In this document: piece by piece, positions 2,134 to 8,145 of the stretch
How positions within the stretch are numbered: the first letter of the stretch is position 1
Layout of the letters: each line of letters starts with the position of its first letter
From: Chloroherpeton thalassium ATCC 35110
GTDB lineage: Bacteria > Bacteroidota > Chlorobiia > Chlorobiales > Chloroherpetonaceae
Assembly (NCBI RefSeq): GCF_000020525.1
Contig: NC_011026.1
Span: 248,001 to 312,000 of the forward strand
Direction: 5' to 3'
Length of the DNA stretch: 64,000 nucleotides
Program-made: the position numbers and the translations under genes
Notes under the pieces: model-generated
Database searches by the model: none
What the model saw: the letters and a program-made list of their open reading frames with translations, nothing else
What the model was told of the DNA's origin: nothing

Positions 2134-3978
2134 TTAAGCCACTTCAGTTGCAGCTTTTTTCTTTTTGGTTTCTTTTGCACGCACGTTGGAATCGAGCGTT
2201 TTCTTGCGCAAGCGAATGGATTTTGGCGTGACTTCCACAAGTTCATCGTCCTCGATAAATTCCAATGCTTGTTCCAGTGTCAGCTTTCTTGGCGGCGTTA
2301 GGCGCAAGGCTTCGTCTGAACCCGATGCACGCATGTTGGTCAATTTTTTCGTTTTGCAAACATTGACATTCATGTCGAACTCGCGATTGGATTCACCAAC
2401 AATCATGCCTTCATAAACGGCGGTGCCTGGTTCAACGAAAAATACGCCTCTATCGTCCAAACTGCTGATTGCATAAGCGACCGAATCACCGTTTTCAGCG
2501 GAAACCAGCACGCCATTCTGACGGGAATTGATCTCGCCACGGAACGGCTCATAGCATTTGAAAATATGGGTCAAAATGCCTTCGCCTTTTGTATCGGTAA
2601 TAAACTCCGTGTTGAAGCCGAGCAAGCCGCGTGTTGGAATTTCAAAATCAAGGCGAACCAATCCGCCTTCCATTTGTGTCATGTTTTTCATTTCCGCTTT
2701 TCTCTTGCCCATCTTTTCGATGACAATTCCGACAAATGTATCCGGCACATCGATGGTCACACTTTCAATTGGTTCGCAAGCGCGGCCTTCTTCATCGCGT
2801 CGGATAATCACTTCCGGTCTGGAAACCCCAAGCTCATAACCTTCACGGCGCAGCGTTTCAATCAAAACGGAAAGATGCAGTTCACCACGCCCCGAAACCT
2901 TAAATGTATCGGCGCTTTCGGTGTCTTCCACGCGAAGCGCAACATTGGATAGCAACTCTTTATACAAACGATCGCGGATATTTCGGCTGGTTACGAACTT
3001 GCCTTCTTTTCCTGCAAACGGCGAGTTATTAACTGAGAAAAACATTGAAATCGTCGGCTCAGTGATTTCAATCGAAGGAAGCACTTCCTGATGTTCAGGA
3101 TGCGTTAAAGTATCGCCAATGGAAATATCTTCAAGGCCCGTCAGCGCGATAATGTCGCCGGCTGAAGCTTCTGAGATTTCAACTTTTCCGAGTTTCTCAA
3201 AAATGAACAGTTTGGCAACGCGTCCATTTAGCAATTTACCTTTGGCAGAAAGACAAGTAAATGGATCGCCTTTTTTGATTGAACCTTTAAAAATTCGCCC
3301 AATCGCAATTTTTCCAAGATATTCACTATAGTCAATAGTGTTGACAAGCATTTGGAAAGGCGCGTCCACATCCGCTTCCGGCGGTGGCATGTGTGCGAGA
3401 ATCATGTCGAGTAGCGGCGTAATGTCCTTTGGCTCATCGCCCAGTTCATTAATGGCGAAACCGCTTTTTGCCGACGCAAACACATACGGGAAATCCAACT
3501 GATCTTCGTGCGCCCCCAGATGGATAAAAAGGTCTAAAACTTCGTCAAGCACTTTCATCGGGTTGCAATTCGGGCGATCAATTTTATTAATGACAACCAG
3601 AATTTTCAGGTGAAGTTCCAGCGCTTTGCGAAGCACAAACTTGGTTTGCGGCATGGGGCCTTCAAGCGCGTCAACCAAAAGCACCGCACCATTAACCATC
3701 TTTAAAATACGTTCAACTTCGCCGCCGAAATCCGCATGTCCAGGGGTATCTACAATATTGACTTTGGTGTCTTTATAAAAAAAGGAAGCATTTTTCGCAA
3801 AAATGGTAATTCCCCGCTCACGCTCTTGGGGATTGGAGTCCATGATTCGCTCATCTACTTTTTGGTTCTCACGAAAAGTTCCTGTTTGTTTGAGCACTGC
3901 ATCAACAAGCGTCGTTTTTCCATGGTCAACATGGGCAATAATTGCGATGTTTCTAATATCGCTACGATATCTTAGCAT
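2134..3978 (-). CDS. typA: Ribosome-associated GTPase TypA/BipA
   Basis: Translational GTPase of the EF-G/LepA superfamily that, in characterised bacteria, binds ribosomes and helps large-subunit assembly, especially under cold or other stress. Seen: P-loop AHVDHGKT (residues 15-22), switch II DTPGH (77-81), NKID (131-134), then EF-Tu domain 2-like and EF-G domain III/V-like segments and the TypA-specific C-terminal region (GEVVGE-type segment [18 protein letters not shown] followed by [10 protein letters not shown]). 614 residues is the usual size; the C-terminal Lys-rich tail ([10 protein letters not shown]) is normal for TypA. The gene stands alone and ends at the bidirectional terminator shared with nadB. 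Confidence 0.96.
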
Positions 3979-4157: not shown

Positions 4158-5603
4158 TTAACCCGCTCTACGACTTAACTTTTGTTCGTCTTCTTTTATG
4201 CAGATAATTTTCACATGTCTATCTTTTTCAAAGAAATCATACACATGAGATTCAGGTATAAGAATTTCAGAAAATAAATTTTCTTTGCATTCAAATGTTT
4301 TTAATTTCTTATTATGATGAACATCTAAGCTTTTCAATTTATTTTTCCCACACCATAATATACTTAACTCGCTATTATAACAAACATTCAATTCAGCAAG
4401 AGCATTTTCCGAACAGTCCAATGTGTCCAAAACAAAGTTTTGCGAAATATCCAACAACTGGATTTGATTTTTGCAGCACCAAAGCGTTTTGAGCTTTCGA
4501 TTTTCAGAAACATCTAACGCAGAAAGCTTGTTTTCAGAACACCACAAACGCTCTAAATCGAAACATTTTTTTAAATTAATTTCATCAATCTTATTTTTCT
4601 TGAAGTTCAAATCTGTTAATAACGGACAGAAAGAAATATCCAAATCACTTAATTCGTTGCTTTCACATGCAAGGAAAATTAGATTTTCATTTTTCAAAAC
4701 ACCTAACTGCTTTAAATTATTTTTTGAACAATCAATACTTATCAATTTTCTATTTTGAGAAAAATCAATATCAATCAGATTATTATTTTTGCAATTAATC
4801 AGCGACAAATCACTATTTTTACTTAGATCTATTGCAACCAACTGATTTGACTGACAGGATAAAATTCTTAAATTCAAGCACTTAGATAAATCAAGTATTT
4901 TCAACTTGTTATTACCACAATATAAAACTTCGATATCCTTATTTTTACTAACATCTAACTCCCGTATCTGATTCAAGAAACAATCAAATTCTTTTAGTTT
5001 CACATTCTGACTTATATCAATATAATCCAGCTGATTCACAGAACACCAGAGTGCTTTTAATTCCAAATTATTCGAAACATCTAAATCCAACAAATTATTA
5101 TTATAGCAATCCAATGTATCAAGTAATAAATTTTGGCTAATATCTAACGCGTGAATCTGATTATTAAAACACCATAGATTTCTTAAATTCGGAGCGCCGT
5201 TCAACTGCAACGACTCCAAGGCATTGTCATTGCAAGCCAAGTAGCTCAATACTTCTGCATTTGAAATTGACAAATTCGTTAGCTTATTTCGATCGCATAT
5301 CAAACCAATTAAATCCTTATTTTTATAAATTTCAATCTCTTCAATTTCATTACGAGAACAGTCGAGATAGCAAAGCGATTCGAAAAATTCAATCCCAGAT
5401 AAATCTTGAATTCCTTTGTTTGATAAAATCAGAAAAGATATTTTTGAAGGATCTTCGACGGAAACAGCGCCATCACCCGCCGGCTTGATTTGGTAATTTG
5501 TGCCGTTTTTAGCATCGTGCTGAATGAGCGCTTGACGAAAATTTTTATCGGGGATGGGAATTTTTATGGCTTGCCCAAATGCCCAGTTCGCCGTAAATAG
5601 CAA
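4158..5603 (-). CDS. Leucine-rich-repeat protein, probably exported; start codon damaged or frameshifted
   Basis: About 17 tandem units of roughly 21 residues with the pattern L-x-x-L-x-C-x-x-N-x-L alternating with L-D-V/I-S-x-N, i.e. a Cys/Asn-ladder LRR solenoid as in internalin-like surface proteins of Bacteroidota. No T9SS tail or anchor is seen at the C-terminus (ends KLSRRAG). In frame only a TTG at 5603 is available, giving MLFTANWAFGQA, which lacks the basic start of a signal peptide. The frame stays open upstream for 8 codons and encodes more hydrophobic residues, but meets TAA with no ATG or GTG. An ATG at 5635 would give MCKNIIVFFIVLLFTANW..AFGQA, a good signal peptide, if the 7-T run (5610-5616) held 8 T. 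The gene is very AT-rich (some lines below 30 % GC) compared with its neighbours, which suggests transfer. Function unknown. Confidence 0.75.
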   Translation of the reverse strand: MLFTANWAFGQAIKIPIPDKNFRQALIQHDAKNGTNYQIKPAGDGAVSVEDPSKISFLILSNKGIQDLSGIEFFESLCYLDCSRNEIEEIEIYKNKDLIGLICDRNKLTNLSISNAEVLSYLACNDNALESLQLNGAPNLRNLWCFNNQIHALDISQNLLLDTLDCYNNNLLDLDVSNNLELKALWCSVNQLDYIDISQNVKLKEFDCFLNQIRELDVSKNKDIEVLYCGNNKLKILDLSKCLNLRILSCQSNQLVAIDLSKNSDLSLINCKNNNLIDIDFSQNRKLISIDCSKNNLKQLGVLKNENLIFLACESNELSDLDISFCPLLTDLNFKKNKIDEINLKKCFDLERLWCSENKLSALDVSENRKLKTLWCCKNQIQLLDISQNFVLDTLDCSENALAELNVCYNSELSILWCGKNKLKSLDVHHNKKLKTFECKENLFSEILIPESHVYDFFEKDRHVKIICIKEDEQKLSRRAG

Positions 5604-5787: not shown

Positions 5788-6249
5788 ATGACGTTAGAGC
5801 AGTTGCTCAATGAAAAAGCACCCTTTCTCATAGAAGAAGCTTTGCAAGCTCTCTCGCGGGCGCACTTAAAGCATTACGAAGAGGAAGGGGCGGCCAAGAG
5901 AAAAGCGCAAATGCAAGCGCTTTACGAACTTACAGCCGAAAGCATCAAGATGCGCGATCTTTCAAAGCTGCTTGATTATGTTCAAGAGGCCGCAACGAGC
6001 TATTACAAAGATGGCTTTGACCTTCACGAGATACAAATGGCGTTCAACGTGCTTGAAGAAGTGGTTTGGAAAAACGCGCTGAAGGAACTCCCGGCTTCGC
6101 AATATGCCGACGCGCTGGGGCTTATTAGCACAGCGCTTGGCGCGGGAAAAGACACGCTCGCGACAACTTACGTGAACTTAGCCAGCAGCAGAAAAATGCC
6201 TTCGCTTGATCTTTCCGAACTCTTTACCGGCACGGAAGGCCGCAATTAA
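5788..6249 (+). CDS. RsbRD N-terminal-domain-like helical protein
   Basis: 153 residues, predicted almost wholly helical. The N-terminal half (LLNEKAPFLIEEALQALSR..HLKHYEEEG) and the middle (ESIKMRDLSKLLDYVQEAATSYYKDGFDLHEIQMAFNVLEEVVW) follow the layout of the RsbRD N-terminal / globin-like sensor domain found in stressosome proteins: a 'H-x-x-Y/HYEEEG' segment followed by '(A)..Y..G.....I....N.LEEVVW'. No STAS domain follows, so it would be a free-standing sensor-like domain. Partner-switching regulators are encoded 8 kb downstream, but linkage is only suggestive. The family call is from pattern memory and should be treated as moderate. The gene is followed by a good terminator. Confidence 0.55.
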   Translation: MTLEQLLNEKAPFLIEEALQALSRAHLKHYEEEGAAKRKAQMQALYELTAESIKMRDLSKLLDYVQEAATSYYKDGFDLHEIQMAFNVLEEVVWKNALKELPASQYADALGLISTALGAGKDTLATTYVNLASSRKMPSLDLSELFTGTEGRN

Positions 6250-6573: not shown

Positions 6574-8145
6574 ATGGATCAAAATTCAGCACTTTCATCG
6601 GATTTTTACCACTTTTTGGCTGCGTTGGGAATCATATTAGTCATTGTGGGTTTTGCGGAATTTTTGAAGAGCATTTTGAAAATGCAATCGGGCGTAACAC
6701 GAAAAATTGTGCACGTTGGAACCAGCGTTCTTGTTGCTTTATCGCCAAACTACTTTGAAACTGGTTTTTACCCCGCCGTTCTTGCTGTTTTGTTTATCCC
6801 CTTCAACTTGTTGGCCATCAAAAAAGGCTGGCTGAGCTCTATCAACAAAGACGAGGCCTTAGAAGCGCATCATCAAGATCAAAACTATGGGACGGTCTAC
6901 TTTCCTCTCTCATTTCTAATCTTGACGCTGCTTTGCTGGGATTCTCACGCGTGGATTATGCAAACCGCCATGCTTATTCTTGGATTTGGCGATGCGTTTG
7001 CTTCGCTTGTCGGCGAAAACACCGAAAAACCACATGCTTACAAGCTTCTTGCCAGCACCAAGTCGCTTGAAGGCTCGATCACCATGTTTGGCACGAGTTT
7101 AATTATTCTCGTTGGCGCATTTGTGGTTTTCCAAGATCAATCGGAAGTGATTAAGCAAATGGACTTATCGGTGGTGATTGCGCTTTGCGTAGCCATTGCG
7201 TTGATTGTCACCGCTGTTGAAGCGTTGCTTTCCGGTGGCTTAGACAATCTATTCATTCCGCTTTCGGTAGCGTATTTATTAGCCGTATTGGAAACAAACG
7301 GCATTGGCGCAGTTCAAGGCATTCTTCTTGGCGTTAGTTTGTCGCTTATTTTAGCCCGCGCTTCATTGGCGTTTAAATTTTTAACGCCAGACGGCGCAGT
7401 CGGCACGTTTTTATTTGGCTCAAATATCTTTAGCATGGGCGGCGTTGAATGGACGGTTCCCATTTTAACCTTTTTCTTGCTCTCTTCGGTTCTTTCCAAA
7501 CTTGGCAAATCTCGCAAAAAAAAGTACGACTTGATTTTTGAAAAATCCTCACAACGCGATTTTGGGCAAGTGCTCGCAAACGGCGGCGTTGGATGGATTC
7601 TGATAATCTGGTATTCTTTCACGAACGAGCCGATGCTTTTCATTGCTTATTTGGGAACACTGGCCGCAGTTCAAGCCGACACGTGGGCAACCGAAGTCGG
7701 CACGATGATGAAAGATCCAAAGCCTCGCTTTATTTTGAATATGAAACCGGTGCCTGCAGGCACTTCGGGCGGCATTACTTTCACAGGCACGATGGGCGGA
7801 TTTTTTGGCGCGCTATTAATTTGCGCAAGCGCTTGGGCAATTATGCCAGACGAGTTGATGTCAGTGGGATTGGTGCAATCATTTTTAATTGTGGGATTGG
7901 CCGGCGCAGGCGGCAGTTTGGTAGATAGCTTTTTCGGCGCAACCGTGCAGGCTCAGTATTACGATCCCATTCGCAAAAAAGAAACCGAACGCACACACAG
8001 TGTTGCAGCAGATGGCACCATCGTCGAAAATGAACTCATCAAAGGCTACCGCATTATTGATAACGACATTGTGAATTTTCTTTGTGCAACGATGGGCGCG
8101 TTGTTCGCCACATTTTTAACGTACTTCATGGTTGGCCAAATCTAA
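6574..8145 (+). CDS. Fused prenol kinases: phytol/dolichol-kinase domain (VTE5-like) plus DUF92 domain (VTE6-like)
   Basis: Polytopic membrane protein of 523 residues with two parts. The N-terminal half (about 1-240) has the signature of the phytol/dolichol kinase family: RKIVHVGTS near residue 45, GFGDAFASLVGE near 145 and KSLEGSITMF near 165. The C-terminal half (about 255-523) is a DUF92 domain: LTPDGAVGTFLFG, ADTWATEVG, PVPAGTSGGI and AGGSLVDSFFGA. In plants and cyanobacteria VTE5 phosphorylates phytol and VTE6 (DUF92) makes phytyl diphosphate, so the fusion would carry out both steps on a prenol released from (bacterio)chlorophyll; this substrate is an inference. The ATG at 6574 is chosen because the in-frame codons before it (from 6514) are polar and unlike the family. 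Confidence 0.85.
   Translation: MDQNSALSSDFYHFLAALGIILVIVGFAEFLKSILKMQSGVTRKIVHVGTSVLVALSPNYFETGFYPAVLAVLFIPFNLLAIKKGWLSSINKDEALEAHHQDQNYGTVYFPLSFLILTLLCWDSHAWIMQTAMLILGFGDAFASLVGENTEKPHAYKLLASTKSLEGSITMFGTSLIILVGAFVVFQDQSEVIKQMDLSVVIALCVAIALIVTAVEALLSGGLDNLFIPLSVAYLLAVLETNGIGAVQGILLGVSLSLILARASLAFKFLTPDGAVGTFLFGSNIFSMGGVEWTVPILTFFLLSSVLSKLGKSRKKKYDLIFEKSSQRDFGQVLANGGVGWILIIWYSFTNEPMLFIAYLGTLAAVQADTWATEVGTMMKDPKPRFILNMKPVPAGTSGGITFTGTMGGFFGALLICASAWAIMPDELMSVGLVQSFLIVGLAGAGGSLVDSFFGATVQAQYYDPIRKKETERTHSVAADGTIVENELIKGYRIIDNDIVNFLCATMGALFATFLTYFMVGQI

Follow-up and report, generated by a model that had tools for sequence, protein, structure and literature searches.

Which reactions might be carried out by a single membrane polypeptide with two kinase-like halves in a green phototrophic bacterium, and do they serve the pigments of that bacterium? 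We addressed this question for a stretch of 64,000 nucleotides (hereafter "the window") from Chloroherpeton thalassium ATCC 35110, of the Chlorobiales lineage, whose genome (G000) is a single contig of 3,293,456 bases. Window positions 6574–8145 on the + strand form a single open frame, encoding a fused protein of 523 residues with both domains inside. This frame, whose stop ends at 8145, can be opened at ATG 6514 (543 residues) or ATG 6574 (523 residues): an alignment of 53 fusions starts near residue 1 of the shorter product, and lends no support to the 20 extra residues of the longer one. A first-pass annotation of this DNA had proposed a natural fusion of a VTE5-type phytol kinase and a DUF92 domain, and the four motifs on which it drew were all found in the protein, i.e., RKIVHVG (residues 43–49), KSLEGS (163–168), ADTWATE (368–374), and PAGTSGG (394–400). 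The open frame, a PF01940 match, and the motifs and fold of the N half together confirm one polypeptide with two kinase-like halves. Loss of key residues in either half, which the same annotation had named as evidence against its reading, was checked and is absent from the window protein.

The N domain, VTE5/Sec59-like, spans residues 1–243 (6574–7302, +), and its model contains eight long helices. Its RKxxH and DxxAxxxG...KSxEGS-type motifs, which are those of the VTE5/polyprenol kinase families (COG0170 group), are intact. We evaluated their conservation across the N halves of 56 diverse fusions. D140xxA143xxxG147 (6991–7014, +) is a putative CTP/metal site, with each residue present in 55/56 N halves; K163-S-L-E-G-S168 (7060–7077, +) is kept at K163 in 51, at G167 in 56, and at S168 in 48 of the 56; and E216 ... 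G222-x-D224-N225 (7219–7248, +) shows each residue in 55/56. The DxxAxxxG...KKTxEG pattern is a dolichol kinase motif. All nine scored N-half residues are kept in 49 of the 56 fusions, the window among them, and five of the remaining seven deviate at K163 alone. Finally, R43-K-x-x-H47 (6700–6714, +; R43 in 55/56 and H47 in 54/56) occupies a charged-clamp position, and equals the R-K-x-x-H pattern proposed for the clamp of Plasmodium PolK, described there as Arg29/Lys30/His33 (PMC10849223).

A Pfam search gave no match for the window N half (residues 1–243), NCBIfam returned chance-level rows only, and PF01148 (CTP_transf_1) did not match the window protein at E values up to 10. CTP_transf_1 was matched by 13 of the 56 homologous N halves (E up to 1; best 3e-6), in a scan that also returned weak unrelated membrane families, e.g., SPW for 7/56 (best 0.0012). 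Since the window N half has neither a Pfam nor an NCBIfam family, the label "VTE5-type" rests on relatives, motifs, and predicted structure. Modeled alone, the N half reached a pLDDT of 93.2 and a pTM of 0.90, and its leading structural matches, both modest, were to CDP-DAG synthase: Foldseek ranked the T. maritima enzyme (TmCdsA) first (probability 0.96, E 0.055), and VIA likewise ranked CDP-DAG synthase first (Z 8.6, 167 residues aligned, 5.6 Å; next other entry Z 6.6). When solved structures were searched by sequence, the N profile yielded a weak CdsA match (E 0.6), and the window protein itself yielded no match. A 2026 analysis assigns one large class of phytol-kinase models to the CDP-alcohol synthase superfamily, and describes an experimental phytol-kinase structure as unavailable (PMC13397572). 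Given its motifs, the CTP_transf_1 matches of its relatives, a standalone homologue (see below), and the predicted fold, the N half is probably VTE5/Sec59-like.

The C domain (residues 256–509; 7339–8100, +) is of the DUF92/COG1836 (VTE6) family, with a PF01940 match at E 1.1e-68 (231.7 bits vs. a cut-off of 27.5). Its score for TIGR00297 is below cut-off (109.1 vs. 205.85 bits), this being presumably a narrower model that covers one DUF92 subgroup; the family assignment accordingly follows PF01940. Conservation extends to 56/56 C halves for R328, Q332, and N336 of R328-D-x-x-Q332-V-x-A-N336 (7555–7581, +), for D369, T370, T373, E374, and G376 of the putative CTP/metal site A-D369-T-W-A-T-E-V-G376 (7675–7701, +), for G396 and G399 of the G396-T-S-G399-G loop (7759–7773, +), for D451-S452 (7924–7929, +), and for N497 and N501 of N497-D-I-V-N501 (8062–8076, +), in which D498 is found in 55/56. 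The 13 scored C-half residues (ADTWATE, GTSGG, DS, and NDxVN types) are intact in all 56 fusions, the window included, in a sample biased in this respect because the 56 loci were found via DUF92.

The full-length model (pLDDT 92.7, pTM 0.91) shows eight long helices per half, and its C half aligns with TmCdsA over 158 residues (Z 7.6, 3.7 Å). The C profile returned nothing relevant when compared by sequence with solved structures. For the full-length model, Foldseek gave no significant match and VIA gave many middling rows, some of which aligned the N half with membrane pyrophosphatases (Z 7.7); we draw no meaning from this likeness, as CdsA ranked first once the N half was run alone. Profile–profile comparison of the two halves (hhalign) places D140 over D369, in a weak match (P 3.4e-4, probability only 38%). 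Overall, and as far as alignments and predicted folds can indicate, two membrane domains that use CTP and are distant relatives of each other seem to be arranged in tandem in this protein, as Makarova et al. 2015 had stated for the archaeal fusion Mbar_A3310 (PMC5898192).

The resemblance of both halves to the CDP-DAG synthase fold would also suit a different pair of reactions, in which the N half would produce a lipid phosphate, onto which a CdsA-like C half would transfer CMP, yielding a CDP-lipid. CdsA (T. maritima, 4q2e/4q2g), which moves CMP to phosphatidate, is indeed the structure that each half matches best among those that make functional sense, but neither half is CdsA by sequence (no PF01148 match). 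The window genome moreover has its own, separate CdsA-type gene (G000:C1:16130-16912; PF01148 E 5.6e-57), and the DUF92 protein of Arabidopsis, VTE6, is described as a phytyl-phosphate kinase (PMC9782597). We consider a CDP-lipid product highly improbable.

Instead, we favor a bifunctional membrane enzyme that takes a prenol to prenyl phosphate and on to prenyl diphosphate, with C15/C20 pigment-tail alcohols as likely substrates in this organism, and give this reading a probability of about one half (0.52). In a first step, the VTE5/Sec59-like N half would use CTP to convert a free prenol to a prenyl phosphate, and in a second step the VTE6-like DUF92 half would add another phosphate, giving a prenyl diphosphate usable by transferases. 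Substrates in the window's bacterium would be farnesol, phytol, or geranylgeraniol from bacteriochlorophyll tails, returned to the BchK, BchG, and ChlG reactions, while non-phototrophs with the fusion would use other free prenols. The fusion, its conserved active-site-type residues, the CdsA-like predicted folds (with modest scores), the distribution, and the neighboring genes were computed directly; both chemical steps are proposed by analogy with VTE5 of Arabidopsis and Synechocystis and VTE6 of Arabidopsis, and the use of CTP, the substrate, and any channelling between halves are presumed. VTE5 is described as a phytol kinase and VTE6 as a phytyl-phosphate kinase, with CTP preferred (PMC9782597), and COG1836 was predicted in 2011 to act in phytol-phosphate metabolism and is reported as essential in Synechocystis (PMC3223725).

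A need for such enzymes can be argued from pigment synthesis. (B)Chl synthases are stated to require diphosphates (PMC9066304), and green sulfur bacteria to incorporate external alcohols (many of them in C. tepidum) into BChl c, of which farnesol is the usual tail, as it is of BChl g (PMC7242693). Activating kinases must therefore exist in green sulfur bacteria, and we infer that these are the fusion and a second gene, linked to bchK, which is described below. In a text search of these two reviews for "kinase", no activating kinase of green bacteria was found to be named (PMC7242693, PMC9066304), the latter review using the term only for an etioplast activity of plants. Two candidate genes for alcohol activation now emerge from the genomes, one fused and one beside bchK. 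The fusion is real and well conserved; the pathway reading, drawn from sequence and analogy, is a plausible proposal.

The combination of DUF92 with a Sec59-like domain is already in print, and the fusion is not special to the window organism or to phototrophs. Bacterial fusions are possibly also mentioned, reportedly, by vom Dorp et al. 2015, who identified VTE6. VTE5 and FOLK (farnesol kinase) are single-domain proteins and VTE6 is not known to carry a VTE5-like partner domain, whereas the window protein joins both types in one chain. As judged from described motifs, VTE5 (Arabidopsis, Synechocystis) and FOLK share the RKxxH-type and other motifs of the window N half, which differs in having no Pfam match; VTE6 (COG1836, At1g78620) has the DUF92/COG1836 domain with the conserved residues of its family, as in the window C half. 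The closest described architecture is that of Mbar_A3310 in Methanosarcina, which Makarova et al. 2015 present as arCOG02245/COG1836 with an N-terminal COG0170, reading both domains as CTP-transferase-family with two conserved aspartates (PMC5898192). Compared by this description, the window frame is of the same type, as both carry a COG0170-like domain and then DUF92 in a single frame. The settings differ: the Mbar_A3310 type is archaeal, and archaeal DUF92 genes are described as uppS-linked (PMC5898192), while the window fusion is bacterial, from a green phototroph, and has relatives with a bchK-linked paralogue. This paralogue, its absence from the window genome, a match with phototrophy in heliobacteria, and the decay of some N halves are new.

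To evaluate how widespread the fusion is, we analyzed 198 genomes of the phylum, 50 within the order Chlorobiales and 148 outside. A profile search detected DUF92 in 122 of these, including one match in each of the 50 order genomes, and both domains were found in one frame in 77, i.e., 50/50 order genomes and 27/148 others; one further genome (G051), with one long frame whose N-terminal part is barely like the profile, was left out of the 77. The recurrence of the two-domain frame in 77 of 198 genomes excludes chance, and conservation across the Chlorobi, a check that the first-pass annotation had called for, holds in all 50 genomes sampled from the order. Among the 27 fusions from outside, at least four have a decayed N half (G062, G016, G011, and G001), and in the one from G006 the N match is interrupted by a stop. 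BchL (TIGR01281) scored over its cut-off in 43 of the 198 genomes, all from the order; the seven order genomes below may be misses, as the search scored at most 12 candidates per order genome, and none of the 148 outside genomes passed. By this marker, the 27 outside-order genomes with the fusion are thus non-phototrophs, and we rejected the fusion as a marker of phototrophs or of Chlorobi. In general, the enzyme would then recycle prenols, pigment tails being one case among others, and a reading specific to phototrophs loses ground accordingly.

Nor do the neighboring genes place the fusion in a pigment operon. In the window, it lies among genes for a leucine-rich-repeat protein, a PLP-dependent transferase, an FAD oxidoreductase, and a product of 153 residues, and in one Chlorobiales family (f2) next to tol-pal-type genes; a pigment operon is rejected for both. 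Upstream in the window, positions 4158–5603 (−) encode the leucine-rich-repeat protein (LRR_4, 481 residues), and positions 5788–6249 (+) the 153-residue frame, which had no Pfam or NCBIfam match. Across 13 order loci, tol-pal-type genes followed the fusion on the same strand in eight, all from family f2 (8/8 sampled there), with MotA/TolQ, ExbD/TolR, TonB-C, beta-propeller, and OmpA types as named on one of these loci (L155); the window locus and four other order loci had none after the fusion.

A standalone VTE5-like gene, mostly a frame of 230–290 residues, is present besides the fusion in 49 of the 50 order genomes, and the single genome without it is that of the window. At each of the eight loci fetched from these 49 (L167–L174), a bchK-family gene lies directly upstream on the same strand, identified in L167 as BchK, bacteriochlorophyll c synthase (NF009058, 591.9 bits vs. 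a cut-off of 494). The eight proteins (231–265 residues) are homologous to the window N half but unfused, with RKITH and DG[LIV]AP in 8/8 and a K[ST]xEGS-type motif in 6/8. In a quick N-domain tree, read with SH-aLRT support only and a midpoint root, bchK-linked proteins form one group (support 95) and ten standalone Ignavibacteria-type proteins another (85), with a branch separating both from the rest (86); the fused N halves do not form one group, being interspersed with a Sec59-like pair, one split gene, and two N genes that are unfused. For step one of pigment-tail activation in the rest of the order, this bchK-linked gene is a better candidate than the fusion.

Longer polyprenols as substrates of the fusion are, in this light, a serious rival: the fusion would re-phosphorylate undecaprenol- or dolichol-type polyprenols for envelope carriers, and the bchK-linked gene would handle pigment tails. 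Such a division of labor is in line with the separate bchK-linked-type gene of 49/50 order genomes, the tol-pal-type genes directly downstream in 8/13 order loci, the occurrence of the fusion outside the phototrophic order, and the archaeal case, where DUF92 adjoins uppS and the N domain is termed Sec59/dolichol-kinase-like (PMC5898192). For the salvage of pigment tails, the other part of the earlier proposal, these are adverse findings, since the fusion precedes tol-pal-type rather than bch genes in 8/8 f2 loci and the gene behind bchK is a different one. However, the DUF92 enzyme of known activity is described as acting on phytyl-phosphate (PMC9782597), and the window genome is without the bchK-linked gene yet has kept bchK. 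The heliobacterial order (that of Heliophilum) adds a further point in favor of tail salvage, unexpected for a pure envelope enzyme: 8/9 genomes have DUF92, fused in all eight, the same eight pass the BchL cut-off, and the ninth has neither. This correlation is thin, with one negative genome that is also smaller, and may reflect one loss in a smaller genome. On balance, an envelope role is possible but less likely.

The window genome represents a natural absence of the bchK-linked gene. Its bchK (G000:C1:679074-680048, L175; 49% identity) lies between miaB and a pair of genes, one lpxH-like and one hisG, all named by likeness to L167 genes; this reproduces the order of L167 minus the kinase gene. 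When the standalone protein of a family-mate was searched against the window genome, only the fused N half was found, at 30% identity. Profile searches identified two N-type candidates in this genome, the fused N half and a 245-residue protein with the same motifs (N-half profile E 2.7e-12), whose gene adjoins one that is ubiE-like, as named by eye. We tentatively suggest, as an idea that may well prove wrong, that in the window organism the fusion is the main alcohol-to-diphosphate activator, replacing the lost bchK-linked kinase and feeding farnesol to BchK, and that the fusion and its bchK-linked partner are the missing enzymes of alcohol incorporation into BChl c.

The two halves do not share the same fate in all lineages. 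Among 84 full-length fusions, neither the RKxxH-type nor the DxxAxxxG pattern is present in L045 and L069, and the RKxxH-type pattern is missing from L051; outside these 84, L198 and L199 have N-terminal parts without either. By profile, the former of the last two is plainly an N half (E 1.7e-22), and the latter only just (E 0.006), and we take it to be a decayed N half. The DUF92 half was found by profile in all five. Standalone genes with the three motifs occur in the genomes of L198 and L199 (L181 and L185), and the genome of L045 (G016) has L191 (L191:4928-6355), a 476-residue protein whose VTE5-like N domain bears the motifs; its C-terminal half is of no recognised type, as it matched no Pfam family and, with hhalign, hardly matched the DUF92 profile (P 0.016, probability 2.8%). 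L191 may be a fusion that lost its C half, and L191 and L045 a possible case of complementary decay after duplication.

Such decay beside a kept DUF92 half suggests, at the level of motifs, that the two activities are separable, and it fits a steadier constraint on the second activity, within a sample biased to DUF92. It could also be read as more general, i.e., in many fusions the DUF92 half would work alone, next to a relic N half, with separate VTE5/Sec59-like kinases doing step one. The five proteins above match this expectation, as do the other N-type genes in the genomes of L198, L199, and L045; the window protein and most other fusions do not, given their intact N residues (all nine in the window and 49/56, with K163 the only deviation in five of the other seven). 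We regard this more general reading as unlikely, and retain the two-step enzyme as the preferred one.

Beyond the fusion, DUF92 is found in other settings. Forty-five genomes of the phylum have DUF92 but no counted fusion, of which 11 have an N-type match (E up to 1e-3) and 34 do not: DUF92 must therefore often have another partner or role, and these 34/45 count against a strict coupling with an N-type gene. In a named genome collection, the fusion was found in 33 of the best 80 loci, which include one broken frame (L079) and one locus cut by a contig end (L084). Fused loci among these 80 came from, e.g., Neomarinimicrobiota, KSB1, Calditrichota, Ignavibacteria, a Tissierellales MAG (G200, in which BchL was not over its cut-off), and Heliophilum; Chloroflexi loci mostly had DUF92 alone, and no cyanobacterial record was among the best 80. 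Because the search for almost every fusion started from DUF92, these counts would miss any fusion with a lost C half. A plasmid search yielded one match, in Thermomicrobium, to the DUF92 half.

Unfused arrangements are themselves varied. Bellilinea has DUF92 unfused and a separate N-type gene, and 23 of 60 sampled genomes of its Chloroflexi class had an N-type match, the six best being in frames of 220–303 residues without DUF92; in a Paenibacillus with DUF92, the N-type search gave no match. In a Chloroflexi MAG, both domains are separate, overlapping consecutive frames (L118:2043-2768 and 2719-3645). In about 20 loci (in clusters of 11 and 10), the DUF92 gene, whether fused or alone, is directly followed by one for a protein of ~1000 residues and one for a protein of ~550 residues, e.g., L032:7756-10740 and L035:7723-10779; in L032, the former is a TPR protein and the latter is without a Pfam family. 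Finally, another natural fusion was observed in Anaerolineae, where DUF92 is followed by a C-terminal phosphatidylethanolamine-binding-protein domain (PF01161) at L139:5761-7293 (E 7.8e-41) and L150:5917-7284 (E 3.1e-45), with L097 and L127 alike by eye.
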